Origin: a virus
Length of the DNA stretch: 29,670 bases
Virus record (IMG/VR): IMGVR_UViG_3300043466_000253
Coordinates: 1 to 29,670 of that record
Direction: 5' to 3' (one strand)
How positions within the stretch are numbered: the first letter of the stretch is position 1; each line of letters begins with the position of its first letter. A program made the position numbers and the translations under genes. Shown here piece after piece: positions 20,846 through 29,670 of the stretch. Below the pieces are notes generated by a model. The model was given only the letters and a program-made list of their open reading frames with translations, was not told the origin of the DNA and did no database searches.

Positions 20846-22497
20846 GTGAACTAGAACGCAAACTGAAGGACTTCAGGAACTTCGTCTATCTGGCGTGGGA
20901 CCATCTTGGGCTACCAGAGCCCACCCCTATCCAGTTGGACATCTCCAAGTACCTACATAAGGGCCCCCGTAGGCGTGTCGTACAGGCATTCCGTGGGGTA
21001 GGCAAGAGTTGGCTTACTAGTGCCTATGTGGTCTTCAGGTTGCTGCATGATCCCAAGTTGAATGTGCTGGTGGTGTCTGCCTCAAAGCAACGAGCAGATG
21101 ACTTCAGTACCTTTACCCTGAGACTGATCAACGAAATTCCCATTTGCCAGCATCTCCGGCCTAGGGATGATCAGCGTAACTCCAAGATTGCCTTCGATGT
21201 GGGCCCCGCCCCAGCCTCTCAGGCCCCTAGTGTTGTTTCTAAGGGAATCACAAGCCAGATCACGGGCAGTCGTGCTGACCTGATCATTGCTGACGATGTC
21301 GAATCGCTGAATAACTCTGCAACCTTCCTGATGAGGGACAAGTTGCAGGGTGCCATTGCTGAGTTTGAAGCAGTTCTCAAACCCGGAGGGGAGGTGATCT
21401 ATCTAGGTACGCCGCAGACCGAACAGTCGATCTACCACGGTCTGCACGAAAAGGGCTATGACACCCGTGTCTGGCCCGCTAGGTACCCCGATTCCCGCCT
21501 CAAGACGGCCTTTGGGGACAAACTGGCTCCCATGCTCAGGGAAGGCGTAGAAGGCGACCCAACGGATCCTAGGCGGTTTAACGCCATGGACCTAATGGAG
21601 CGCGAAGCGTCCTATGGCCGCACCGGGTTTGCCCTCCAGTTCATGCTGGATTCGACCCTGAGTGACGCAGACAGGTACCCGCTCAAGTTGAGCGACCTGA
21701 TCGTCTTCGGTCTGAACCCAGAGAACGCCCCTGAGAAGCCTGTCTGGGCCATGAACCCCAGCAACATCGTCAAGGACATCCCTTGCGTGGGCTTCAATGG
21801 AGATCGGTACTACAGCCCAATGGATATGCAGGGCAAGTGGGTGCCGTATTCTGGCAGCATCATGGCTATTGACCCCTCGGGTCGTGGCGATAACGAGACT
21901 GCTTATGCGGTTGTCAAGATGCTGAATGGGTTCTTGTATGTCACCGATGCTGGTGGCTTGACTGGAGGGTACGACCAGACAACCATGGAGCGTCTGGTTG
22001 GCATTGCCAAGACCCAAGCGGTGAACAAGATCATCGTGGAATCGAACTTTGGCGACGGTATGTTTACCGAACTGCTGAAGCCGTACCTGATGAAGTCTTA
22101 CCCCTGTACGGTCGAAGAGGTCCGTCACAACACCCAGAAGGAACGCCGGATCGTTGACACCTTGGAACCCGTTATGTGCCAGCACAGGCTGGTCATTGAC
22201 ACCAATGTGATCCGGTCTGACTACGAGTCAACCAAGAAATACGCCTCGGAGAAGGCACTTCAGTACAGCCTGCTGTGGCAGATGTCACGAATTACCCGGG
22301 TCCGCAAGGCGTTGGCCTACGATGACCGACTGGATGTTCTGGCAATGGCCGTGGGGTTCTGGACTGAAATGATGGCTCAGGATGCCCAGAGTAAGATTAC
22401 TCAGCGTCGTGAGGAAGAACTGGATCGTGAACTGGAACGGTTTATGGAACACGCTGTCGGGCGTAAGCCCAGAGGTGACACATGGATGAGCCTGTGA
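20842..22497 (+). CDS. terL: Terminase large subunit, T7 gp19-like
   Basis: This 551-residue packaging motor has all expected motifs. Walker A is A-F-R-G-V-G-K-S (49-56) and Walker B is L-I-I-A-D-D-V-E (147-154). The coupling motif region is Y-L-G-T-P-Q-T-E (187-194). The RNase H-like nuclease motifs are A-I-D-P-S-G-R-G-D (342-350), V-E-S-N-F-G-D-G-M-F and D-D-R-L-D-V-L-A-M-A-V near the end. It pumps DNA through the portal and cuts the concatemer. The start is TTG in a TTGA overlap with TerS. No ATG or GTG in this frame gives an intact N-terminus, so a rare start with translational coupling is likely. Confidence 0.96.
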   Translation: MSELERKLKDFRNFVYLAWDHLGLPEPTPIQLDISKYLHKGPRRRVVQAFRGVGKSWLTSAYVVFRLLHDPKLNVLVVSASKQRADDFSTFTLRLINEIPICQHLRPRDDQRNSKIAFDVGPAPASQAPSVVSKGITSQITGSRADLIIADDVESLNNSATFLMRDKLQGAIAEFEAVLKPGGEVIYLGTPQTEQSIYHGLHEKGYDTRVWPARYPDSRLKTAFGDKLAPMLREGVEGDPTDPRRFNAMDLMEREASYGRTGFALQFMLDSTLSDADRYPLKLSDLIVFGLNPENAPEKPVWAMNPSNIVKDIPCVGFNGDRYYSPMDMQGKWVPYSGSIMAIDPSGRGDNETAYAVVKMLNGFLYVTDAGGLTGGYDQTTMERLVGIAKTQAVNKIIVESNFGDGMFTELLKPYLMKSYPCTVEEVRHNTQKERRIVDTLEPVMCQHRLVIDTNVIRSDYESTKKYASEKALQYSLLWQMSRITRVRKALAYDDRLDVLAMAVGFWTEMMAQDAQSKITQRREEELDRELERFMEHAVGRKPRGDTWMSL

Positions 22498-22673
22498 CTG
22501 AGTGGTCTTTGAACCTAACCCATAAGGCTTGCAGAGTTCTGCTTTCTTACGAGGATCACCTAAGAAGCGAACGCTCCCTAAAGGCATCAACCAAGTTGGC
22601 TAAGGCTATGCGTGAGTTGCGCGAAGCCCTGCCCAAGGAACTGCTGGAGATGGCAAATGGCAAACCCCTGTAA
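22482..22673 (+). CDS. Small helical protein of unknown function
   Basis: This 63-residue protein overlaps the TerL end by 16 bases and the next gene by 17. AGAGGTG precedes the ATG. The sequence is mostly helical (residues 10-60), with alternating charged and aliphatic residues such as LAKAMRELREALPKELLEM. I do not recognise it. The tight overlaps at both ends and continuing coding-like composition support a real gene. Confidence 0.55.
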   Translation: MDEPVTEWSLNLTHKACRVLLSYEDHLRSERSLKASTKLAKAMRELREALPKELLEMANGKPL

Positions 22674-22896
22674 AGGCAAGAAACTGAATACTCCGTGGCG
22701 TACCCCGGGTGGAAACAAGAAGTCCGCCGTGTGCGTCAAGGATGGCGAAAAGACCAAGGTGGTTCGCTTTGGCGACCCCAAGATGAAGATCAAGAAGCAC
22801 ATCCCGGGTCGTAGGGCCAACTTCCGGGCTCGACATAACTGCGACAACCCGGGGCCTAAGACCAAGGCTCGGTACTGGTCCTGTAGGGCGTGGTGA
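22657..22896 (+). CDS. Small basic protein with conserved FRARHNC...YWSCRxW motif
   Basis: I choose ATG 22657 (79 residues) because homology-like sequence begins there. The frame also extends upstream to 22612, inside the preceding gene. The C-terminal part, R-R-A-N-F-R-A-R-H-N-C (52-62) followed by P-G-P-K-T-K-A-R-Y-W-S-C-R-A-W (65-79), is a strongly conserved phage motif. I remember it both as stand-alone small proteins and at the C-terminus of some prohead proteases. Together with the front part (R-T-P-G-G-N-K-K-S-A-V-C-V-K-D-G), it looks like a small cysteine-containing, possibly metal-binding domain (Cys 5, 26, 62, 76). Its role is unknown, and virion association is plausible. Confidence 0.7.
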   Translation: MANPCKGKKLNTPWRTPGGNKKSAVCVKDGEKTKVVRFGDPKMKIKKHIPGRRANFRARHNCDNPGPKTKARYWSCRAW

Positions 22897-22899
22897 TTT

Positions 22900-23253
22900 A
22901 TGCCCAAAGATGCGTGTTATCGTAAGGTCATGCGGTCGTATGGCAAGTGGTCCGCAAGGGCTGCTCAGGCTACCGCCAAGTGCCGGAAGGCCAAGGGAGA
23001 TGTCCGTAAGGGCGAAGCAGGAGCCAACCTGAAGCGTTGGACAGACGAGAAGTGGGTTGATACCCGTACTGGTAAGCCCTGTGGCGGTGGTGGTAAGAAC
23101 GAGTATTGTCGCCCTAGCCGCAAGATCAGTAAGAAGACTCCCAAGACTGTGGGCGAAATGTCCAAGTCTGAACTGGCCGCTAAGAAGCGTGAAAAGATGA
23201 AGATCGGGATGCGTGGTGCATCTGGTCCCAAAGTGTCCCCTGCAAAGAGGTAA
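22900..23253 (+). CDS. DUF5872-like small basic protein
   Basis: This is a 117-residue, very basic protein. K-D-A-C-Y-R-K-V-M-R-S-Y (3-14) and A-A-Q-A-T-A-K-C-R-K (21-30) are followed by the core W-x-x-E-K-W-V-D (47-54), G-K-P-C-G (58-62) and E-Y-C-R-P (68-72), ending T-P-K-T-V. This Trp/Cys pattern is what I know as DUF5872, found in several aquatic viruses. The tail (90-117) is disordered and Lys-rich. Four cysteines (6, 28, 61, 70) could hold a metal. The charge suggests DNA or capsid-interior binding. Function is unknown. The ATG follows the previous stop by three bases. Confidence 0.65.
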   Translation: MPKDACYRKVMRSYGKWSARAAQATAKCRKAKGDVRKGEAGANLKRWTDEKWVDTRTGKPCGGGGKNEYCRPSRKISKKTPKTVGEMSKSELAAKKREKMKIGMRGASGPKVSPAKR

Positions 23254-23255
23254 TC

Positions 23256-23474
23256 ATGTCGATGTTTAACAAGTTTATTGCTTCGGAACTCAAGATTGGT
23301 ATGAAGAAGAACCACAATGGTGGTGCCTCCGCAAACGGTCGTTCCAAGTCGAAGCCTTCGGCTCGTCCTTCAGTTACCCCGGCCCAGAAGACTGGAATGC
23401 GCCTGAGTGGCCGTCCCGGAGTTCTGCAAGCAGGCGGGGCTTCGCAGGGTGCTACTGGTGGAGGTAAGAAGTAA
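23256..23474 (+). CDS. Small basic low-complexity protein
   Basis: This 72-residue protein starts MSMFNKFIASELKIGMKK and then becomes a disordered Ser/Pro/Gly/Lys-rich chain ending G-G-G-K-K. It starts three bases after the previous stop and its own stop overlaps the next ATG (TAATG). No known domain. Its place in a run of small basic proteins downstream of terminase suggests a shared virion or DNA-binding role, which is only inference. Confidence 0.55.
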   Translation: MSMFNKFIASELKIGMKKNHNGGASANGRSKSKPSARPSVTPAQKTGMRLSGRPGVLQAGGASQGATGGGKK

Positions 23475-23590
23475 TGCCAAAGAAAGTTGTCGAAGCCCTA
23501 GTGCGTAAGGGGATGTCCAAGGACAAGGCTTATGCCGTTGCCTATGGACAGGTCAAGAACCGACTCAAGGTCAAGAAGAAGGCCAAGTGA
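23474..23590 (+). CDS. 38-residue basic protein
   Basis: A very small frame, ATG 23474 to TGA 23588-23590, encodes MPKKVVEALVRKGMSKDKAY followed by A-V-A-Y-G-Q-V-K-N-R-L and a Lys-rich tail. It overlaps both neighbours by stop/start fusion (TAATG before, TGATG after). The segment V-x-x-L-V-x-K-G-M-S-K-x-K-A-Y-A resembles short helix-turn-helix-like phage peptides that I recall from marine viruses. The perfect fit between neighbours, with no other use for these 116 bases, is the main support. Confidence 0.65.
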   Translation: MPKKVVEALVRKGMSKDKAYAVAYGQVKNRLKVKKKAK

Positions 23591-23814
23591 TGTCTGATCG
23601 TGACTACAAAGAAGAATATCAAAAGTACCACGGTACTGAACGATACAAGAAAGACCGGGCTCATCGAAACAAGGTCCGCCGGATGATGATCCGGGAAGGC
23701 AAGGTCCGTAAGGGCGACGGTAAGGATATTGACCACAAGAACGGGAATCCCCGGGATAACCGTAGGTCAAATCTAAGGATCGTCCACCGATCAGTTAACC
23801 GCGCCAAGCACTAG
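23590..23814 (+). CDS. HNH endonuclease-like protein
   Basis: This 74-residue protein has a basic helical front (R-Y-K-K-D-R-A-H-R-N-K-V-R-R) and an HNH-type core: K-G-D-G-K-D-I-D-H-K-N-G-N (41-53), then D-N-R-R-S-N-L-R-I-V-H-R-S (56-68). His49, Asn57/61 and His66 are the expected active-site positions. Small HNH nucleases next to terminase genes often assist packaging or cleavage at genome ends. ATG 23590 overlaps the preceding stop (TGATG); a GTG one codon earlier is an alternative. The short length is normal for minimal phage HNH proteins. Confidence 0.75.
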   Translation: MSDRDYKEEYQKYHGTERYKKDRAHRNKVRRMMIREGKVRKGDGKDIDHKNGNPRDNRRSNLRIVHRSVNRAKH

Positions 23815-23827
23815 AAAGGACCCATCC

Positions 23828-24157
23828 ATGGACATCAAGTGGTCACCCTATGTTATCAAAGTGAGCCCTGTTGAGATGCCCAAGGATGAATTTGGTCAGT
23901 TCTTCTACTACCCTACTCCTGAGATACACATCTCTAAGGACCTTAGAGGTATACCCTACTACAGTACACTAGTACATGAACTACTAGAGATGGTGAATGG
24001 GGTCTATGAACTAGGTCTATCAGAGACTAAGATCAGGATCCTAGAGACATCCCTGATGCAACTGATGTGTCAGAACCCGGATGTCGTGACCAGTCTGGGA
24101 ATGGCATTACAAGGCCCGGGTAGGGCAGAGGCCCCAGAGGTACCCCCCAAGGCTTAA
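23828..24157 (+). CDS. Degenerate metallopeptidase-like small protein (HELLE motif)
   Basis: This 109-residue protein contains Y-S-T-L-V-H-E-L-L-E-M-V-N (45-57), followed by L-S-E-T-K-I-R-I-L-E-T-S-L-M-Q-L. This layout recalls small phage proteins with an HExx(H/E) helix and a second helix supplying a further ligand. The second His of a classical HExxH is Glu54 here, so activity is doubtful. AGAAAGGACCC precedes the ATG. Six of nine leucines between about 23938 and 24065 use CTA, unlike its neighbours, and the DNA is CTAG-rich, suggesting a different history. It is the last gene before the long gene-free region. Confidence 0.6.
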   Translation: MDIKWSPYVIKVSPVEMPKDEFGQFFYYPTPEIHISKDLRGIPYYSTLVHELLEMVNGVYELGLSETKIRILETSLMQLMCQNPDVVTSLGMALQGPGRAEAPEVPPKA

Positions 24158-24167
24158 AAGGTCACAG

Positions 24168-24203
24168 ACGGGCTCCTAGGGGCTGCAAACGGGTGCCTAG
24201 GGG
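24168..24203 (+). repeat. Near-perfect 15-base tandem repeat, 21-base period
   Basis: ACGGGCTCCTAGGGG (24168-24182) and ACGGGTGCCTAGGGG (24189-24203) differ at two positions. It lies just after the last late gene and could belong to a packaging or junction signal. Confidence 0.6.
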
Positions 24204-24436
24204 GTGATGGGGGTAGACGATAGGTGGCTGAAGTGGGGTAGGGCTGATTTTGGGAAAAAAATGTGAAAGGCTTTAATTGATATTTAGTCCGCCCGCTACC
24301 CCCCGTGGGTACCCGTGGCCGCTCGACGATATCCCCACGCTTTGACTAGGTCGGAAACGGGCGCGAGACTTGAACGGATCCAAGGGTGGGCCCATGGTTG
24401 AACCGATGGAATCACGGCGGGATTGTGGAGCGGGTC

Positions 24437-24451
24437 GTCTAGGGTCTAGAC
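24437..24451. repeat. GTCTAG-N3-CTAGAC palindrome, copy 1 (centre GGT)
   Basis: A 15-base interrupted palindrome with 6-base arms. It lies upstream of the first early promoter, about 100 bases before its -35 box. Confidence 0.9.
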
Positions 24452-24500
24452 GCCTGTCCCTCACTCGCCGTTTTCTTATCGGACTCACCCCTAGCACTCT

Positions 24501-24515
24501 GTCTAGACTCTAGAC
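24501..24515. repeat. GTCTAG-N3-CTAGAC palindrome, copy 2 (centre ACT)
   Basis: Same element, 64 bases after copy 1 and 37 bases before the -35 box at 24553, a typical position for an upstream regulatory site. Confidence 0.9.
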
Positions 24516-24552
24516 GCCGGACTCACTCGTGGAAAAAAACTTGCCAATGCGC

Positions 24553-24581
24553 TTGACTTGAGCCGAAGGGTAGGCTATTCT
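24553..24581 (+). promoter_or_regulatory. Sigma70-like early promoter P1
   Basis: TTGACT (24553-24558), 17 bases, TATTCT (24576-24581). It is the first promoter after the presumed genome end and reads into the alanine-rich early gene at 24651. The leader (about 24588-24650) contains TTGTGTC twice (24584 and 24609). Confidence 0.75.
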
Positions 24582-24650
24582 CCTTGTGTCGGGCCACTTC
24601 CGCGTTGGTTGTGTCCCGGCACTCTCAAGGTTCAACGAAAGGAACCAACC

Positions 24651-25268
24651 ATGTCAGGAATCGCTACCACTCTCACCCCCGACGCAACCAAGGCCGACGC
24701 TATGACTGACGCGCAACGGACCGCGCATGAGGCCTTCACCAAGGCGGCTACCAAGGCATCCAAGGGCCTCGCCGCAGTGGGGACCGCCATGGTGTCCGCC
24801 TTGAAGGCGGGGTGTCATGTCGCTCTGTCGCTGGCCCCGCGCACCTACCTTACGCAGGTCCTGACCGCTGCAGGCATGGCCCGTTCATCCGCGGACAGCG
24901 CCGCAGCCATGGCCTTCACGCTCTGGCACGCTCCTGAGGCTGAGGGAATCCCGGCTGAAGGACTCCGGCTGCTGGCCCGTGCTGCCAAGGGCAAGGATCC
25001 GTCGGAAGTGTCGACTGCCATCCGCAACGCCGTCCGTGCGGCTCGTGCCAAGGCACCCATGCGCGCCGATGGCGGTGCGGGCGAGGCATCGGTGGCGGAC
25101 ATTCGCGCCATCGTGGCGGGACCGTCGACCGCCAAGGCACCAGCGCAGGAACTCGCTGATCTGGCCTATCGTCTCGCCAAGCGGGACGCGACCGTGGCCA
25201 AGGCCATGCTCCGGGATGCCGTGGCCATCATGGGAGACCGCGAAACGGAAGACTGCGCCGACGAATGA
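24651..25268 (+). CDS. First early gene: alanine-rich helical protein of unknown function
   Basis: This 205-residue protein starts at ATG 24651, with the early-type site CGAAAGGAA just upstream. The frame extends further 5' to 24558, but that part lies in the promoter and leader. It is very rich in Ala, with amphipathic helices (for example A-H-E-A-F-T-K-A-A-T-K-A-S-K-G-L-A-A-V) and a basic stretch R-N-A-V-R-A-A-R-A-K around 123-132. Codons are almost all G/C-ending, more so than neighbours. No family is recognised. Being first from the genome end, it holds the position of T7 gene 0.3 (anti-restriction), so host takeover or anti-defence is a reasonable guess only. It is closed by a palindrome and a strong terminator. 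Confidence 0.75.
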   Translation: MSGIATTLTPDATKADAMTDAQRTAHEAFTKAATKASKGLAAVGTAMVSALKAGCHVALSLAPRTYLTQVLTAAGMARSSADSAAAMAFTLWHAPEAEGIPAEGLRLLARAAKGKDPSEVSTAIRNAVRAARAKAPMRADGGAGEASVADIRAIVAGPSTAKAPAQELADLAYRLAKRDATVAKAMLRDAVAIMGDRETEDCADE

Positions 25269-25269
25269 T

Positions 25270-25284
25270 GTCTAGACTCTAGAC
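25270..25284. repeat. GTCTAG-N3-CTAGAC palindrome, copy 3 (centre ACT)
   Basis: Same element, starting two bases after the stop codon of the first early gene and about 11 bases before its terminator hairpin. Confidence 0.9.
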
Positions 25285-25295
25285 ACGGGATCGAC

Positions 25296-25330
25296 CCTCG
25301 GCCACCTTCGGGTGGTCGGGGGTTTTTTTA
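25296..25330 (+). terminator. Strong Rho-independent terminator with TTCG loop
   Basis: An 11-bp stem, left arm 25296-25306 (CCTCGGCCACC), loop TTCG (25307-25310), right arm 25311-25321 with G-U pairs, then seven T residues. A further T-rich stretch follows (25331-25347). It isolates the first early gene as its own transcription unit. Confidence 0.9.
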
Positions 25331-25351
25331 TTTTTGCGATTTTTTTTGGGC

Positions 25352-25373
25352 CGCTGTCATCACTACTATCATC
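25352..25373 (+). repeat. 22-base direct repeat, copy A
   Basis: An exact 22-base match to 25435-25456; its core reads TCATCACTACTATCATC. The two copies start 83 bases apart on the same strand. Size and CACTA-CTAT-like core are reminiscent of single-subunit RNA polymerase promoters, but this is only a resemblance. Confidence 0.85.
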
Positions 25374-25434
25374 AGGCCCGGTCGATTCCGGTCGATTCCA
25401 GACCGTCCCGACCCCAGTTCAATCCGGGTTCGTT

Positions 25435-25456
25435 CGCTGTCATCACTACTATCATC
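25435..25456 (+). repeat. 22-base direct repeat, copy B
   Basis: Identical to copy A at 25352-25373 over all 22 bases. Flanking bases differ apart from a G/C-rich segment that follows each copy (AGGCCC after A, GCGGGCC after B). Confidence 0.85.
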
Positions 25457-25514
25457 GCGGGCCGTCCCCATTTAGACACGCCAAGGACCGACCACAGTTG
25501 CTTTGGGTTGCCTG

Positions 25515-25534
25515 TAGTTATACCAGTCGTATCC
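25515..25534. repeat. TAGTTATACC...GTATCC dyad, copy 1
   Basis: Contains ATAC-N5-GTAT inside a conserved frame TAGTTATACC-N4-GTATCC. Two related copies follow at 25580 and 25674. Operator-like. Confidence 0.6.
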
Positions 25535-25557
25535 GTTTCTGTAATCAGAAACAACCT

Positions 25558-25572
25558 GTCTAGGGTCTAGAC
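25558..25572. repeat. GTCTAG-N3-CTAGAC palindrome, copy 4 (centre GGT)
   Basis: Same element, lying between two of the ATAC/GTAT dyads in the gene-free control region, not directly ahead of a gene. Confidence 0.9.
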
Positions 25573-25579
25573 ATCCCTT

Positions 25580-25599
25580 TAGTTATACCCTAGGTATCC
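25580..25599. repeat. TAGTTATACC...GTATCC dyad, copy 2
   Basis: Same frame as copy 1 with centre CTAG, giving ATACC-CTA-GGTAT, the most symmetric of the three. Confidence 0.6.
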
Positions 25600-25621
25600 T
25601 TATAAAGACCTCTATAAGGAT
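25596..25621. repeat. 9-base inverted repeat ATCCTTATA / TATAAGGAT
   Basis: Perfect arms at 25596-25604 and 25613-25621 with an 8-base spacer in AT-rich DNA. There is no T-run after it, so it is not a clear terminator. It could be an operator or an easily opened origin element. Confidence 0.7.
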
Positions 25622-25673
25622 CTATACAGGATTAGAGATAAGACTAGTAGAAGTACTACTGAAGTCAACTCTT

Positions 25674-25692
25674 TAGTTACTCTATGGTATCC
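25674..25692. repeat. TAGTTA...GTATCC dyad, copy 3 (diverged)
   Basis: TAGTTAC then GGTATCC, one base shorter than copies 1 and 2 and less symmetric. Confidence 0.45.
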
Positions 25693-25744
25693 AACCTGTA
25701 GACCCATAGGTAATCCAAAGTTTACCCTCACTATTCTTGGGGTC

Positions 25745-25773
25745 TTGACATGGTCATTCCTTTCTGATACCAT
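25745..25773 (+). promoter_or_regulatory. Sigma70-like early promoter P2 (extended -10)
   Basis: TTGACA (25745-25750), 17 bases, TACCAT (25768-25773), preceded by TGA, which gives the TGn extended -10 motif. It reads into the gene at 25861 after an 80-base leader. Confidence 0.8.
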
Positions 25774-25791
25774 TCCGTTGTTGGAGATTGT

Positions 25792-25804
25792 GTTCATTGT
25801 GAAC
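25792..25804. promoter_or_regulatory. Dyad GTTCA-TTG-TGAAC in the P2 leader
   Basis: A perfect 5-base inverted repeat 18 bases downstream of the -10 box, so near +12 to +24. Operator-like. It is unrelated in sequence to the dyads at the other promoters. Confidence 0.5.
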
Positions 25805-25823
25805 CCACTCTTCAGCACCCTCT

Positions 25824-25838
25824 GTCTAGGGTCTAGAC
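25824..25838. repeat. GTCTAG-N3-CTAGAC palindrome, copy 5 (centre GGT)
   Basis: Same element within the transcribed leader, ending 22 bases before the ATG at 25861 and just ahead of the CGAAAGGAAA ribosome binding site. Confidence 0.92.
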
Positions 25839-25860
25839 AGTTTCCACCGAAAGGAAAGCC

Positions 25861-26220
25861 ATGAAGACTTGGATGAACCTGATTGCCCGTGACCTGTGGG
25901 TTGCCGCTCTGCGCTCCGGGAAGTACAAGCAGGGAACCCGGAAACTGGTCCGGGACACGATTGAGCCGGGTACCTGCGAGTTCTGTGCCCTTGGTGTTCT
26001 CTGCGAGGTGTACTGCGACGAAGTCGAAGACATCAGGAACCGCAACAACCCATTCCGGCGGTCATACGGTGCGATTGAGGCCACGACGATCCCGCCCGCG
26101 GAAGTGCTTGAGTGGGCAGGCATGACTAACGGCTTTACAGATTATGTTGCCCGTGTGAACGATGGCTACGGCTGCAAGTTTGACGAAATCGCTCTGATTG
26201 TCGAACACGCCACCAAGTGA
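25861..26220 (+). CDS. Small conserved phage protein with W-x-x-A-L-R-S-G-x-Y-x-Q-G and C-x-x-C-x-L-G-V-L-C motifs
   Basis: This 119-residue early protein has D-L-W-V-A-A-L-R-S-G-K-Y-K-Q-G (11-25), then C-E-F-C-A-L-G-V-L-C-E-V-Y (39-51). It ends with an N-D-G-Y-G-C-K-F-D-E-I-A segment (100-111). Phage and bacterial proteins with W-x-x-A-L-R-S-G-x-Y-x-Q-G and C-C-L-G-V-L-C have this layout, but no function is established that I know of. The Cys cluster here is C-x2-C-x5-C. The start is set by CGAAAGGAAA before the ATG, downstream of promoter P2 and palindrome copy 5. It probably is a host-takeover or anti-defence protein by position only. Confidence 0.7.
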   Translation: MKTWMNLIARDLWVAALRSGKYKQGTRKLVRDTIEPGTCEFCALGVLCEVYCDEVEDIRNRNNPFRRSYGAIEATTIPPAEVLEWAGMTNGFTDYVARVNDGYGCKFDEIALIVEHATK

Positions 26221-26232
26221 TCTCTGGTCGGT

Positions 26233-26247
26233 GTCTAGGGTCTAGAC
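26233..26247. repeat. GTCTAG-N3-CTAGAC palindrome, copy 6 (centre GGT)
   Basis: Same element between the genes at 25861 and 26295. A degenerate copy follows one base later, forming a tandem pair. Confidence 0.92.
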
Positions 26248-26248
26248 G

Positions 26249-26263
26249 GTCTAGGCCCTAGGC
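26249..26263. repeat. Degenerate GTCTAG-N3-CTAGgC copy (centre GCC)
   Basis: GTCTAGGCCCTAGGC matches the element except for one arm base (A to G). Its centre is 16 bases from that of copy 6, about 1.5 helical turns. Confidence 0.6.
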
Positions 26264-26294
26264 ACCACCAAACTCAACCCGAAAGGAAAGCACC

Positions 26295-26927
26295 ATGAAG
26301 CACTATGTGATCGCCACCGCAATCGTCCTGTCCGTCTTCTTCTTCACCCTGATGGACGCTAGCCCATGGATCACCGTGGGATTCGTCGGGATCTTCACCA
26401 CCATGCTGGTGTTCCATTGTGACCGCCAACAGGAGCGGCAGAACGCCTTGGAGGAGCGCATAGATGAAATGGGGTGGGCTGAAGAGCAGATTGCCCGTCT
26501 GAACAAGGGCGGGCTCATCGGGTCAGGCCCGGGGGAAGAGAATGCGGAGGACCTGATGTCGGCATGGGACACCATGAGCAACGAACTCAAGGCCCTGACC
26601 GCCCCAAGGCGAACCGGATGGGTGGTTGCGTGGATCGACTCGTCGGGACGGGAGTTCAGCCAAACCGTATATGCCACGACGCAACACGAGGCATATGAAG
26701 TCGCCCTCGACTGTTACGCCGAGAGGCGGAATGTTTCACCGTTCCGATACGATGGGGTCTATGTGTTCAGGCTGTACCGCGAAGAGACTGTTCTTCCCTC
26801 AATCCATCAGAGCATCCGGGCCCACAATCCGCCCGAGGCGGACGGAATGCCCGCGCTTGCCGACTTCGCCGCGCAGATGGAATACCTGACCGCCTATCAG
26901 GGAGGCAAGAAGTTCAAGCAACCCTGA
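26295..26927 (+). CDS. Early membrane protein of unknown function
   Basis: This 210-residue protein has two N-terminal hydrophobic segments (about 4-20 and 26-42: YVIATAIVLSVFFFTLM and ITVGFVGIFTTMLVF). A charged coiled-coil-like stretch follows (D-R-Q-Q-E-R-Q-N-A-L-E-E-R-I-D-E-M). Next is a soluble domain with a W-V-V-A-W-I-D-S-S-G-R-E-F-S strand and a Y-E-V-A-L-D-C-Y-A-E helix (about 110-150). The second domain resembles a small alpha/beta fold, but I cannot name it. The likely topology is N-in, hairpin in the inner membrane, soluble domain in the cytoplasm. CGAAAGGAAAG precedes the ATG. No own promoter is seen, so it is co-transcribed from P2. Confidence 0.65.
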   Translation: MKHYVIATAIVLSVFFFTLMDASPWITVGFVGIFTTMLVFHCDRQQERQNALEERIDEMGWAEEQIARLNKGGLIGSGPGEENAEDLMSAWDTMSNELKALTAPRRTGWVVAWIDSSGREFSQTVYATTQHEAYEVALDCYAERRNVSPFRYDGVYVFRLYREETVLPSIHQSIRAHNPPEADGMPALADFAAQMEYLTAYQGGKKFKQP

Positions 26928-26932
26928 GGCCC

Positions 26933-26961
26933 TTGACACGGTCCCCACTTGCTGATATTAT
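26933..26961 (+). promoter_or_regulatory. Sigma70-like early promoter P3
   Basis: TTGACA (26933-26938), 17 bases, TATTAT (26956-26961): the best consensus match in the window. It drives the gene at 27032. Confidence 0.88.
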
Positions 26962-26974
26962 TCCGTAAGTGGGG
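26943..26974. promoter_or_regulatory. Operator-like dyad CCCCACTT / AAGTGGGG across P3
   Basis: Perfect 8-base arms at 26943-26950 and 26967-26974 flank the -10 box. A dimer bound here would block polymerase, so repression is likely. The transcript would start inside the right arm, so an RNA hairpin is not possible. Confidence 0.75.
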
Positions 26975-26998
26975 ATCGTTTCTCCATCAACCCGACCT

Positions 26999-27013
26999 GT
27001 CTAGAGTCTAGAC
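26999..27013. repeat. GTCTAG-N3-CTAGAC palindrome, copy 7 (centre AGT)
   Basis: Same element in the P3 leader, about 30 bases after the predicted start and 18 bases before the ATG at 27032. AGT is the complement of the ACT centre of copies 2 and 3. Confidence 0.92.
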
Positions 27014-27031
27014 ACAACCGAAAGGAAACCC

Positions 27032-27820
27032 ATGCTTACTGTTCTGCCTGTTCTGCAACCAGTTGCCCCCAAGTGGGCAGAAATCTCCGCCGCAGCCAAC
27101 CGCGCCTACGACTATATCGTCGAGTCAGGCAACAACCCGCTGCGTGTCAACTACCACAGCGGTCTACTGACCAAGCCCGGAGCAAACACCAAACTCTCCA
27201 AGGCATCGCCCCTGCCCATTTGGGGGCTGACCTTGGCCCCTGCGGGGGCATCGGGGTACCAGTTGTGCCCGTGGCGTAGCCCGGAATGCGAAGCCGCTTG
27301 CCTTGGCATCACCGCAGGTCGCTCCAAGTTCTCCAATGTGCAGCAAGCCCGGATCAACAAGACGAGATATCTCATGGAGGACCCACTCAACTTCTACTGT
27401 GAACTTTTCCATGAGTTGCAGACACGGGCCCGCCGTGGAGGTCCCTTCGCAATGCGGTGGAATGTCCTATCGGATATCCCCATCGAATCCGTGTGTGCCC
27501 GTGCCCTGAACCTGCCCACGGTCAACTACGACTACACCAAATCGTATCTACGGGCATTGGCCTCGTTGTCCCGGAAGAACTACAGGCTGACCCTGTCTTA
27601 CTCCGGCCACAACTTGGAGGAATGCCTCGACTACTTGGATCGTGGGGGCAATGTCGCCATGGTCTTCAGGGATGTCCCATCGTCGTGGGATCGGTTCCGT
27701 GTGATCAACGGTGACGAATCCGACGCTCGTTGGACCGACCCGCAGGGTTGCATCGTCGGTCTTCGGGCCAAGGGCAACATCAAGGACTCCGTGTTCGTTA
27801 TGAATCGTTCTCGCGTCTAA
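27032..27820 (+). CDS. GP88/DUF7227-like phage protein with Cys cluster, probable barrel fold
   Basis: This 262-residue protein has features I associate with phage GP88/DUF7227-type proteins. G-L-T-L-A-P-A-G-A-S-G (65-75) is followed by a cluster C79-x6-C86-x3-C90 (L-C-P-W-R-S-P-E-C-E-A-A-C-L). Then come regularly spaced strand motifs: M-R-W-N-V-L-S-D-I (141-149), V-N-Y-D-Y-T-K (164-170), Y-R-L-T-L-S-Y-S (184-191) and G-N-V-A-M-V-F (206-212). Strand-helix units of 20-25 residues suggest a TIM-barrel-like enzyme, and the cysteines could bind Fe-S or Zn. Function is unknown. It has its own strong promoter (P3), operator dyad and palindrome copy, so it is individually controlled. Confidence 0.7.
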   Translation: MLTVLPVLQPVAPKWAEISAAANRAYDYIVESGNNPLRVNYHSGLLTKPGANTKLSKASPLPIWGLTLAPAGASGYQLCPWRSPECEAACLGITAGRSKFSNVQQARINKTRYLMEDPLNFYCELFHELQTRARRGGPFAMRWNVLSDIPIESVCARALNLPTVNYDYTKSYLRALASLSRKNYRLTLSYSGHNLEECLDYLDRGGNVAMVFRDVPSSWDRFRVINGDESDARWTDPQGCIVGLRAKGNIKDSVFVMNRSRV

Positions 27821-27855
27821 GACATCTCTCTTCTCTTTTCTGAAAGGAACCCACA

Positions 27856-28161
27856 ATGGGAATGGATCAGACACTAACTGCGTACACCCCGTCCGGAAAC
27901 TTCCAGATGCACTTGAGGAAAGCCTACTGGCTCGACTCATGGCTCCGGGAACGGTGTCCCACGGGCTACAGCAGCGACGGCTGTTGGGCCAACTGCGAGA
28001 TCACCCCGGGACTCGTCATTGAGTTGCGCCGGGCGGTGTGGGATGACTACTACAACGGTGAGTTCAGGGATGGCCCATGCTTGCAAACCATTCAGGCTAT
28101 GGGATGGTTGGAGGCACACGATGCCATGGGCCACACCATCAAGTATCACATGGACTGCTGA
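27856..28161 (+). CDS. Small conserved phage protein (MGMDQTL...YWLDSW type)
   Basis: This 101-residue protein starts MGMDQTLTAYTPSG and has R-K-A-Y-W-L-D-S-W-L (21-30). It looks related to the broad phage family beginning M-G-L-D-M-Y-L with Y-W-R-K-A-N-x-I-H-x-W-F, whose function is unknown. Five cysteines are spread along the chain. TGAAAGGAACCC precedes the ATG. There is no palindrome or promoter in the 35-base gap before it, so it is presumably expressed with the gene at 27032. Confidence 0.62.
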   Translation: MGMDQTLTAYTPSGNFQMHLRKAYWLDSWLRERCPTGYSSDGCWANCEITPGLVIELRRAVWDDYYNGEFRDGPCLQTIQAMGWLEAHDAMGHTIKYHMDC

Positions 28162-28164
28162 ACC

Positions 28165-28179
28165 GTCTAGACCCTAGAC
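28165..28179. repeat. GTCTAG-N3-CTAGAC palindrome, copy 8 (centre ACC, inverted)
   Basis: Same element in the opposite orientation to the GGT copies, four bases after the preceding stop and 21 bases before the ATG at 28201. Confidence 0.92.
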
Positions 28180-28200
28180 ACAACCACGAAAGGAAACGAC

Positions 28201-28467
28201 ATGAACTACATCCCCTCATCAAACGACAAGGTGCATTGGTATCGCCACGCTGAAGGTCATCGGATTTACTTCAAGAACGGATGGGCAGTTTCCATAATCC
28301 CCGGCTGCAATGGGGACACCATGGAGTGTGCCGTGATCCCGCCATACGATGGTGAAATGGATATCCAACTGCGGACACCCGATGAACTGCCCGTGTTCCT
28401 TGCCGGAATCCAGTCCCGCACCATCGAACCAATGACTCTGTCGGCCAACAACACCTTCACGGACTGA
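28201..28467 (+). CDS. Small early protein of unknown function
   Basis: This 88-residue protein has H-R-I-Y-F-K-N-G-W-A-V-S-I-I-P (20-34), followed by an acidic E-C-A-V-I-P segment and a C-terminal L-R-T-P-D-E-L-P-V-F-L-A-G-I-Q. Small phage proteins with a F-x-N-G-W-x-V-S-V strand and a following turn with G-x-x-x-x-E-x-A-V are common in early regions, with no known role. CGAAAGGAAACG precedes the ATG. The next gene starts three bases after its stop. Confidence 0.62.
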   Translation: MNYIPSSNDKVHWYRHAEGHRIYFKNGWAVSIIPGCNGDTMECAVIPPYDGEMDIQLRTPDELPVFLAGIQSRTIEPMTLSANNTFTD

Positions 28468-28470
28468 CCA

Positions 28471-28656
28471 ATGACCAACGACAGCAACAACATTGAAACC
28501 ATCAACATCACCCCCAAGTGGGAAGCCGTGATCGACCTGTTCCTCATCGTCCTGAAGCCGCAATGCGACTTCGATACCCTGCAATATGTCCGCAGGGAAC
28601 TGAAGCGAATCGCGGTGGTCATCGATGAAACCAACGACACCATCAAGGGGGCTTGA
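28471..28656 (+). CDS. Small early protein (N-I-T-P-x-W-E type)
   Basis: This 61-residue protein has I-N-I-T-P-K-W-E-A-V-I-D-L-F-L (11-25), then Y-V-R-R-E-L-K-R-I-A-V-V-I-D (39-52). This matches a small phage helical family with I-x-P-x-W-E near the start and E-L-x-R-M-A near the end. Function is unknown. It starts three bases after the previous stop, without a clear separate binding site or palindrome, so translation is probably coupled. The -35 box of promoter P4 begins inside its last codons. Confidence 0.6.
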   Translation: MTNDSNNIETINITPKWEAVIDLFLIVLKPQCDFDTLQYVRRELKRIAVVIDETNDTIKGA

Positions 28657-28681
28657 CACAAGCAATCGTTTCGGTTAGCAT
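28653..28681 (+). promoter_or_regulatory. Sigma70-like early promoter P4
   Basis: TTGACA (28653-28658), 17 bases, TAGCAT (28676-28681). The -35 is embedded in the dyad GCTTG-ACA-CAAGC (28651-28663), and the 12-mer TTGACACAAGCA is shared with P5. It reads into the gene at 28756. Confidence 0.8.
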
Positions 28682-28688
28682 TGTCCTA

Positions 28689-28703
28689 GGTGGAAGTTCC
28701 ACC
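28689..28703. promoter_or_regulatory. Dyad GGTGGAA-G-TTCCACC at the P4 start
   Basis: A perfect 7-base inverted repeat beginning at about the predicted transcription start of P4. It is an operator, or a 5' hairpin that could stabilise the transcript. Confidence 0.65.
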
Positions 28704-28712
28704 AACCCTCCT

Positions 28713-28727
28713 GTCTAGGGTCTAGAC
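28713..28727. repeat. GTCTAG-N3-CTAGAC palindrome, copy 9 (centre GGT)
   Basis: Same element in the P4 leader, about 25 bases after the predicted start and 28 bases before the ATG at 28756. Confidence 0.92.
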
Positions 28728-28755
28728 AGATCCCAGTTCTCGAAAGGAAAGTGAA

Positions 28756-29235
28756 ATGGAAATCCCAGTCAGCATCGTTCTCTCCCCCGAAGCACTCGCT
28801 AGCCTCCGGGGATCCACGGGTCCGACCCTGTTCGACAAGTCCGAAAGCATCAACAACCTGACCGACAATCAGTACTTCATCAACGAAGTCGCCAGTCGGA
28901 TCCACCCCCGGGAAATCGCGGAACAAATCGACACCGATGACCTCGCGGAAGAGATGACCCGCAAGGTCGAACTGGACGCTGGTGAAATCGCGGGCTACAT
29001 CGATGTCGAGTCCGTTGCGGGCTACATCGACCCCGAAGAGATCGCAAACCACTTCGATGCAGACGACATCGCCTCACGCATCGACATGGAAGATATTGTC
29101 GAGTCCCTGCCCATGGGCCGTCTGGCTAACGCCTTGGCGAAGCAGATCGTGGAGAACCCATCGCTTCGGGAAGCCTTGGTCGAGTCGTTCATCAACCGCC
29201 TGACCCACAGCCTGCTCCCCAAGAGCAGCACCTAA
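28756..29235 (+). CDS. Acidic nonapeptide-repeat early protein
   Basis: This 159-residue acidic protein contains seven 9-residue repeats of consensus I-D-x-E-D-I-A-x-x. They are IHPREIAEQ (49-57), IDTDDLAEE (58-66), a six-residue break, LDAGEIAGY (73-81), IDVESVAGY (82-90), IDPEEIANH (91-99), FDADDIASR (100-108) and IDMEDIVES (109-117). The repeats would form short amphipathic turns or helices giving an elongated acidic rod. The C-terminus (118-159) is helical and less acidic. No catalytic motif is seen. The acidity would suit nucleic-acid mimicry or binding to a basic host protein, but this is speculation. It is driven by P4 with a palindrome and CGAAAGGAAAG before the ATG. Confidence 0.7.
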   Translation: MEIPVSIVLSPEALASLRGSTGPTLFDKSESINNLTDNQYFINEVASRIHPREIAEQIDTDDLAEEMTRKVELDAGEIAGYIDVESVAGYIDPEEIANHFDADDIASRIDMEDIVESLPMGRLANALAKQIVENPSLREALVESFINRLTHSLLPKSST

Positions 29236-29288
29236 ACCTTTCGGTGGCTGGGCCGCGCATAGCCGAAGCAACGCGGTTTCTCATCGAC

Positions 29289-29317
29289 TTGACACAAGCA
29301 AAGGAATCCACTAGTAT
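29289..29317 (+). promoter_or_regulatory. Sigma70-like early promoter P5 (leaderless output)
   Basis: TTGACA (29289-29294), 17 bases, TAGTAT (29312-29317). The next gene's ATG is at 29324, six bases after the -10, so transcription should start at or within a base or two of the start codon. CTTGACACAAG is shared with P4. Confidence 0.85.
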
Positions 29318-29323
29318 ACCACT

Positions 29324-29524
29324 ATGGAATCAGAAAGCCCATGTACCGTTTCCGATGCCCTGAACACCGCGTGGGTGGGATGGGCAAAGGAAGATCTCGC
29401 CGTGTCCTACTACTGGGGCCTAGTAGCCCTCCATACATCCGAGTCGTTTGGCCTGTACCTGACCGATTCGGAAGCCGTGTTTCTCTCTGTCGCAACTTCT
29501 AACCCGCCCGAAGCAACCGTCTAG
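29324..29524 (+). CDS. Small early protein, probably translated from a leaderless mRNA
   Basis: This 66-residue protein (MESESPCTVSDALNTAWVGW, then K-E-D-L-A-V-S-Y-Y-W-G-L) is not recognised. Bases before the ATG (C-T-A-G-T-A-T-A-C-C-A-C-T) lack any Shine-Dalgarno sequence and contain the -10 box of P5, so the mRNA would have essentially no leader. All other early genes have a GAAAGGAA-type site, except the coupled gene at 28471. The TAG stop codon lies inside palindrome copy 10 (GTC-TAG-ACC...). The next possible in-frame start is well downstream. Alternative: it is not a gene and P5 drives the next one, but the good frame and position favour a gene. Confidence 0.6.
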   Translation: MESESPCTVSDALNTAWVGWAKEDLAVSYYWGLVALHTSESFGLYLTDSEAVFLSVATSNPPEATV

Positions 29525-29533
29525 ACCCTAGAC
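29519..29533. repeat. GTCTAG-N3-CTAGAC palindrome, copy 10 (centre ACC, inverted)
   Basis: Same element. It contains the stop codon of the preceding gene and ends 21 bases before the ATG at 29555. Confidence 0.92.
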
Positions 29534-29554
29534 ACAAACCTTCAAGGAACTGCA

Positions 29555-29670
29555 ATGTCCAAGACCTTCACCACCGTGTCCGACCTCTCCCGCATCCAGA
29601 TGCCCGCTGCTACCCGCACTTGGCAACCCGTGTCTCAAGTCCAGTTGTTCAACTCCATGTGTGATGCGAT
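29555..29670 (+). CDS. Start of an early gene running out of the window (DUF932-like N-terminus?)
   Basis: ATG 29555 is preceded by TTCAAGGAACT and palindrome copy 10. The frame stays open to the window edge, 38 residues: MSKTFTTVSDLSRIQMPAAT, then R-T-W-Q-P-V-S-Q-V-Q-L-F-N-S. The A-T-R-T-W-Q-P-V segment followed by a helix recalls the N-terminus of phage DUF932-type proteins (A-T-x-T-x-x-P-V-P-H), but only the beginning is visible, so the family is a guess. Confidence 0.6.
   Translation, partial: MSKTFTTVSDLSRIQMPAATRTWQPVSQVQLFNSMCDA

Follow-up and report, generated by a model that had tools for sequence, protein, structure and literature searches.

The DNA analyzed here (the window) is the entire 29,670-nt record IMGVR_UViG_3300043466_000253 of an uncultured virus in IMG/VR. 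By its gene content, it is a T7-like podovirus (Autographivirales): it carries T7-type portal, capsid, and tail genes and genes for the small and large terminase subunits, together with those for a scaffold protein and a T7 gp14-type internal virion protein. The nearest cultured relatives are pelagiphages, roseophages, LUZ100, and others, with portal and terminase identities of about 50 to 60%. The early region spans approximately 24.4 to 29.67 kb, and the window stops before the RNA polymerase (RNAP) gene. The order that follows the gene under study is visible in relatives extending beyond this end, among them G001, a record of 39 kb (loci L056/L057): a DUF932-family gene, a T7-like RNAP, a gp2.5-like single-stranded DNA-binding protein (SSB), a RusA-like nuclease, and a primase/helicase. 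The single-subunit RNAP gene was found after the early region in G001 (PF00940, E = 2e-65; phrog_414). The T7-like phages HTVC019P, LUZ100, and the CRP phages resemble the window in gene order, RNAP, terminase, portal, SSB, and primase/helicase but differ in that neither the 66-amino-acid (66-aa) family described below nor the DUF932 cistron was detected in them; a tblastn search for both among 50,697 phage records gave no match. A gp88-family gene (PF17338; 27032-27820) also occurs in mycobacteriophages, to which 95 bp are 79% identical at the DNA level, and in pelagiphages; its likeness to mycobacteriophages was dropped as a clue to the host, since the same likeness occurs in pelagiphages.

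At the end of the window, the plus strand carries the promoter P5, which consists of a -35 box TTGACA (29289-29294) and a -10 box TAGTAT (29312-29317) separated by a 17-nt spacer. As an earlier note on this DNA had claimed, the -10 box ends six bases before an ATG. The gap (ACCACT, 29318-29323) is followed by an open reading frame of 66 codons (ATG at 29324, TAG at 29522-29524), a candidate leaderless early gene of an orphan family. Because six bases usually separate a -10 hexamer from the transcription start, the A of this ATG is the predicted +1. The -10 box itself carries an in-frame stop codon (TAG TAT ACC ACT ATG), and the frame therefore cannot begin farther upstream. The absence of a Shine-Dalgarno (SD) sequence, also asserted in that note, was borne out: none lies 4 to 15 nt upstream of the ATG. 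The sequence AAAGGA (29300-29305) ends 18 nt before the start codon, within the promoter spacer, and is absent from diverged alleles. The combination of promoter, six bases, and ATG occurred once in the window and in none of 300 first-order random sequences, confirming that the geometry is not due to chance.

Upstream of P5, RNA folding predicted a plus-strand hairpin with a weak T tail (GGCCGCG...CGCGGTT, 29251..29278), and similar structures were found in G001, G004, and G005. Located between a 159-aa gene and P5, it is a possible weak terminator that isolates the P5 transcript. Downstream, the SD sequence AAGGAA (29544..29549, plus strand) precedes the DUF932-family second cistron of the P5 operon, whose 5' part (29555..29670, plus strand) is cut by the window end; the whole gene is present in a relative (L057:12692-13414; PF06067, E = 5e-7). 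As the earlier note had stated, a strong SD precedes almost every other early gene, but not universally: the gene at 28471 lacks one, as does the RNAP gene in most lineages. The other four promoters of the window each have leaders, and the three strong early ones among them (25745, 26933, and 28653) are followed by a palindrome-bearing leader, a GAAAGG motif 58 to 75 nt after the -10 box, and SD-led starts. At promoter 26933 (26933-27021), an inverted repeat, TCCCCACTT...AAGTGGGGA, flanks the -10 box and could be an operator or a leader hairpin, and the leader of promoter 28653 (28653-28727) contains GGTGGAAGTTCCACC.

The 3' end of the P5 gene coincides with copy 10 of this palindrome, GTCTAGACCCTAGAC (29519-29533), which forms part of the next gene's leader. 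The TAG of its first arm (GTC TAG) is the stop codon, in agreement with the earlier note. Ten perfect copies are present in the window and 14 in G001, and the window holds 11 near-copies compared to 0.19 expected in shuffled sequences. In G001, every copy falls within the segment that runs from where the early region starts to where the RNAP gene ends; the palindrome (GTCTAGnnnCTAGAC) is likewise confined to the early region in the window (24437-29533) and in G004 (21205-29473). Copies are often found at gene ends, ahead of the next SD, and several genes besides the P5 gene stop inside them. Genes running into the palindrome usually stop there because the CTAG arms hold TAG in two of three frames. 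The P5 gene homologues of L191, L193, L197, L198, and L205 stop outside a palindrome; in several lineages, the gene terminates immediately ahead of it, or no palindrome occupies this position. Having the stop within the palindrome is thus common but inessential and results incidentally from CTAG arms located where cassettes meet. Cassettes have been exchanged or inserted with junctions at palindromes (window 29281-29518 compared to L020; 26998-27028 compared to L022), as if the palindrome-SD unit acted as a recombination boundary.

In G004, all 11 copies read GTCTAAnnnTTAGAC (GTCTAA...TTAGAC), with both arms changed together, as would be expected for the site of one trans-acting dimeric protein. 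Palindrome centers occur in both orientations, which favors recognition of DNA rather than RNA. The palindrome (GTCTAGGGTCTAGAC DNA) is a candidate operator, and a role as an RNA hairpin only is less likely, given the two center orientations and the concerted arm change in G004. No cognate repressor was identified among the early genes scanned. The stoperators of cluster A mycobacteriophages are similar in having many short early intergenic copies whose sequence differs concertedly between lineages. They are, however, asymmetric and mostly in one orientation (PMC6550527), whereas the palindrome studied here has symmetric arms and centers of both orientations, and we rejected its assignment as a classical stoperator on these grounds.

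To follow P5 in relatives, we used 36 loci obtained by an RNAP profile search and permitted 4 to 9 nt between the -10 box and the ATG. Of the related loci, 28 had sufficient DNA upstream, and 26 of these contained a homologue with a distance of exactly 6 nt, in each case 1.06 to 1.23 kb upstream of the RNAP start. The 15 distinct proteins compared represent lineages that are related and hence not 15 independent events. Among them, the gap showed 14 different 6-mers but always the same length, so that its sequence is free and its length fixed. The -35 box is TTGACA or TTGACG and the -10 box TA[AGT]NAT in all relatives that kept the promoter, with a spacer of 16 or 17 nt. The homologues are 13 to 97% identical overall, and the other 14 of the 15 proteins share 13 to 40% identity with that of the window. 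The N termini ahead of the shared core vary in length, so that promoter and start codon have moved together. The relatives that were compared first (G001, L014, L008, L015, G003, G005, and G004) already displayed the same -35 box, -10 box, and 6-nt gap with differing gap bases. In G005, 99% identity to the window persists up to 29280 and gives way to a diverged allele (approximately 40% protein identity) before the DNA becomes 97% identical again from 29519, which indicates that the cassette was swapped together with its promoter while the geometry remained unchanged.

The leadered early genes of the same genomes vary in leader length (GAAAGG 56 to 76 nt after the -10 box), whereas the P5 spacing is constant. 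At the sequence level, the predicted +1 at the start codon and the lack of an SD were found in the window and in all promoter-keeping relatives. In the two exceptions (L210 and L216), the P5 promoter is replaced by another, leadered gene; here, the homologue has a GTG start that overlaps the upstream stop codon and is shortly preceded by an SD-like AAAGGAGGG or CAGGGGGG. The fixed distance could in principle reflect some other constraint on the junction of promoter and gene. We also scanned other viral contigs with the pattern TTGACA-17-TAGTAT-N2-16-ATGG. Among the matches listed, the spacing peaked at 6 nt (17 of 81 sites), and 24 of the 32 SD-less open reading frames of at least 40 aa had 5 to 7 nt. 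This peak indicates that the architecture is a widespread phage habit and the mode an already known one. A second leaderless candidate (TTGACA-17-TACTCT or TACTAT-6-ATG/GTG; L015, L029, L035, and L042) was discarded, as its frame is not conserved and a hairpin leader is likelier.

The comparison strongly supports leaderless initiation, as the earlier note had suggested: the 6-nt distance is fixed across the 15 lineages, and an SD-like stretch and gene overlap appear only where the promoter was lost. We consider it very probable, from these sequence comparisons, that the P5 gene is read from a leaderless mRNA with its +1 at the A of ATG 29324. P5 would be a host sigma-70-type promoter, and its operon would be the last host-promoted one before the phage RNAP gene, with the leaderless mRNA carrying the first cistron. 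The 5' AUG would presumably be bound directly by 70S ribosomes, bypassing the SD step, and by analogy to the T7 gene order the gene should be expressed early. Against this reading, leaderless translation is weak in some bacteria. Alternatively, the gene could mostly be translated from a longer read-through transcript of P4 (28653), with P5 mainly serving the DUF932 gene. P4 is oriented like P5, and the T tail of the hairpin at 29251-29278 is only weak; however, no lineage that keeps P5 offers a usable SD, the homologue overlaps the upstream gene behind an SD-like stretch where P5 is lost, and the exact 6-nt spacing would be left unexplained. We therefore regard read-through as improbable.

The encoded protein is under purifying selection: two alleles gave a dN of 0.074 and a dS of 0.38 (dN/dS of approximately 0.19). 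AlphaFold predicted a three-helix bundle with a pLDDT of 88 (from 5 or 16 sequences). The weakest alternative, in which the frame stays untranslated behind an incidental ATG and P5 drives the DUF932 gene alone, could draw on the lack of a database family match but is highly improbable for a family that is conserved down to 13% identity, with this dN/dS ratio and a confident fold, and that keeps an ATG or GTG start in every member. Searches of Pfam, PHROGs, PADLOC, and PDB profiles returned no significant match for the family, and pattern scans revealed no homologues in cellular genomes. Foldseek also gave no significant match (best PDB E value of 0.28; best viral E value of 0.019, to an uncharacterized phage protein). 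Against TPR-like and 14-3-3 helical proteins, VIA-align Z scores reached 8.0; such values lie within the range of a common arrangement and were not used to assign a function. The acidic protein of the window (pI of approximately 4) brought up an Ocr-like DNA mimic, which was rejected for the family, as other members have basic C termini. Our guess is that the P5 protein is a small helical protein-binding factor that acts on the host early in infection.

Leaderless genes are already known from phages. Lambda and P2 have been named as sources of such genes (PMC4633059). Like lambda cI and the P2 leaderless genes in E. coli, the P5 gene is expected to have an mRNA that begins at the AUG and lacks an SD; lambda and P2 are temperate, however, whereas the P5 gene is an early gene conserved within a T7-like group and the first in the operon before the RNAP gene. 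The Thermus phage phiYS40 has been reported to shift IF2/IF3 in favor of leaderless mRNAs and thus shares the idea that leaderless genes may be tied to changes in host translation, but there most middle and late genes are leaderless, while here a single early gene stands among mostly SD-led ones (PMC3594737). T7 gp0.7 has been reported to modify initiation factors, with effects on leaderless mRNA unstudied (PMC9031893). A possible part for the P5 gene in host takeover, as raised in the earlier note, accordingly has some background by analogy, with a precedent in phiYS40. In Deinococcus, -10 motifs (TANNNT) 6 to 7 bp before open reading frames yield leaderless mRNAs, an arrangement that P5 shares (PMC12340547). 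Those Deinococcus-Thermus cases are cellular genes, and P5 differs further by its conserved -35 box. Judged by these features, the P5 gene would work like lambda cI, the phiYS40 genes, and the Deinococcus -10-adjacent genes. That one leaderless gene is kept to the base across a T7-like group, among SD-led neighbors, suggests that SD-free initiation itself was selected.

The far end of the P5 operon may offer a reason. We read the junction between the DUF932 and RNAP genes in 35 loci (L208 is cut there) and found, in this order, a hairpin carrying TTCTCC in one arm, a run of pyrimidines, a strong hairpin resembling a terminator, usually the palindrome, and the start codon of the T7-like RNAP gene. 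In G001, the hairpin, anti-SD stretch, and terminator-like hairpin occupy L057:13415-13524 (G001 33415-33524), and they recur in L059, L060, L185, and other RNAP loci. The early SD region has its reverse complement in the pyrimidine stretch (CCGAAAGGAAAG in G001 and G004), and this stretch and the SD motif used by early genes co-vary across lineages: L185 combines AGAAAGAGAG leaders with the stretch CTCTCTTTCT, leaders and element of L197 share GGAGAACACC, and the counterpart in G008 is CTCGAAAGGAAA. Early genes mostly have GAAAGGA-type SDs and later genes mostly AAGGAG or GGAG. The match to the element was 8.3 nt for early leaders, 6.3 nt for downstream genes, 5.5 nt for the start of the leaderless gene, and 4.0 nt upstream of the RNAP gene, the latter two being the lowest. 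A search of L057 against Rfam yielded no known structured RNA, and the idea that the element serves a gene on the minus strand as its SD was rejected, as no conserved start codon was seen on that strand.

The P5 gene and, usually, the RNAP gene lack an SD target, which suggests an RNA shut-off that both escape. We tentatively propose, from this complementarity, that the P5 operon could be a translational switch, a possibility that we rate as rather doubtful. The 3' RNA of its transcript (hairpin, UUCUCCUUUCCUUUCGG-type seed, and intrinsic terminator) would pair with the SDs of the remaining early genes and dampen translation from them; exempt would be the leaderless first gene and, in most lineages, the RNAP gene, which follows the terminator and has no SD. 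There is about an even chance that the complementarity has no trans function and that the stretch acts only in cis on the DUF932 cistron, whose SD belongs to the same transcript, or mirrors a common base composition. The excess in G008 is weak and fits such a lack of trans function (3 sites of at least 10 nt, a number reached by 4% of random windows). In G001, by contrast, sites of at least 10 nt lie mainly at ribosome binding sites, namely, those of six early genes, one DNA polymerase gene, and one primase/helicase gene, and the other strand has only the element itself. Also against cis action or composition, the elements fitted their own lineage better than permuted elements of other lineages (mean match of 7.7 compared to 6.8 nt; duplex energy of -15.3 compared to -13.5 kcal/mol), with a permutation P value of at most 5e-5 that held with nine representatives, for lineages that are related and starts chosen by purine content. 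If the element acts in trans, a single transcript would switch off early genes that are SD led but leave SD-free ones active, and it would become directly testable why leaderless genes exist in phages, a long-standing question. The co-varying stretch is thus a concrete but only possible reason for the P5 gene to avoid an SD.

The RNAP start itself (e.g., L194:7001, L218:7001, and L205:4528) usually follows soon after the palindrome and has no SD in most lineages. Some RNAP loci carry an extended -10-like TGCTATAAT or TGCTATACT directly upstream of the palindrome, and in L205 a TATAAT-6-ATG arrangement makes the RNAP gene itself look leaderless. A promoter-like TTGAC[AG]-17-TATAGT or TAGTCT sequence is conserved in the 3' end of the RNAP coding sequence (G001 35816; G004 29360; G008 36631, reverse strand).
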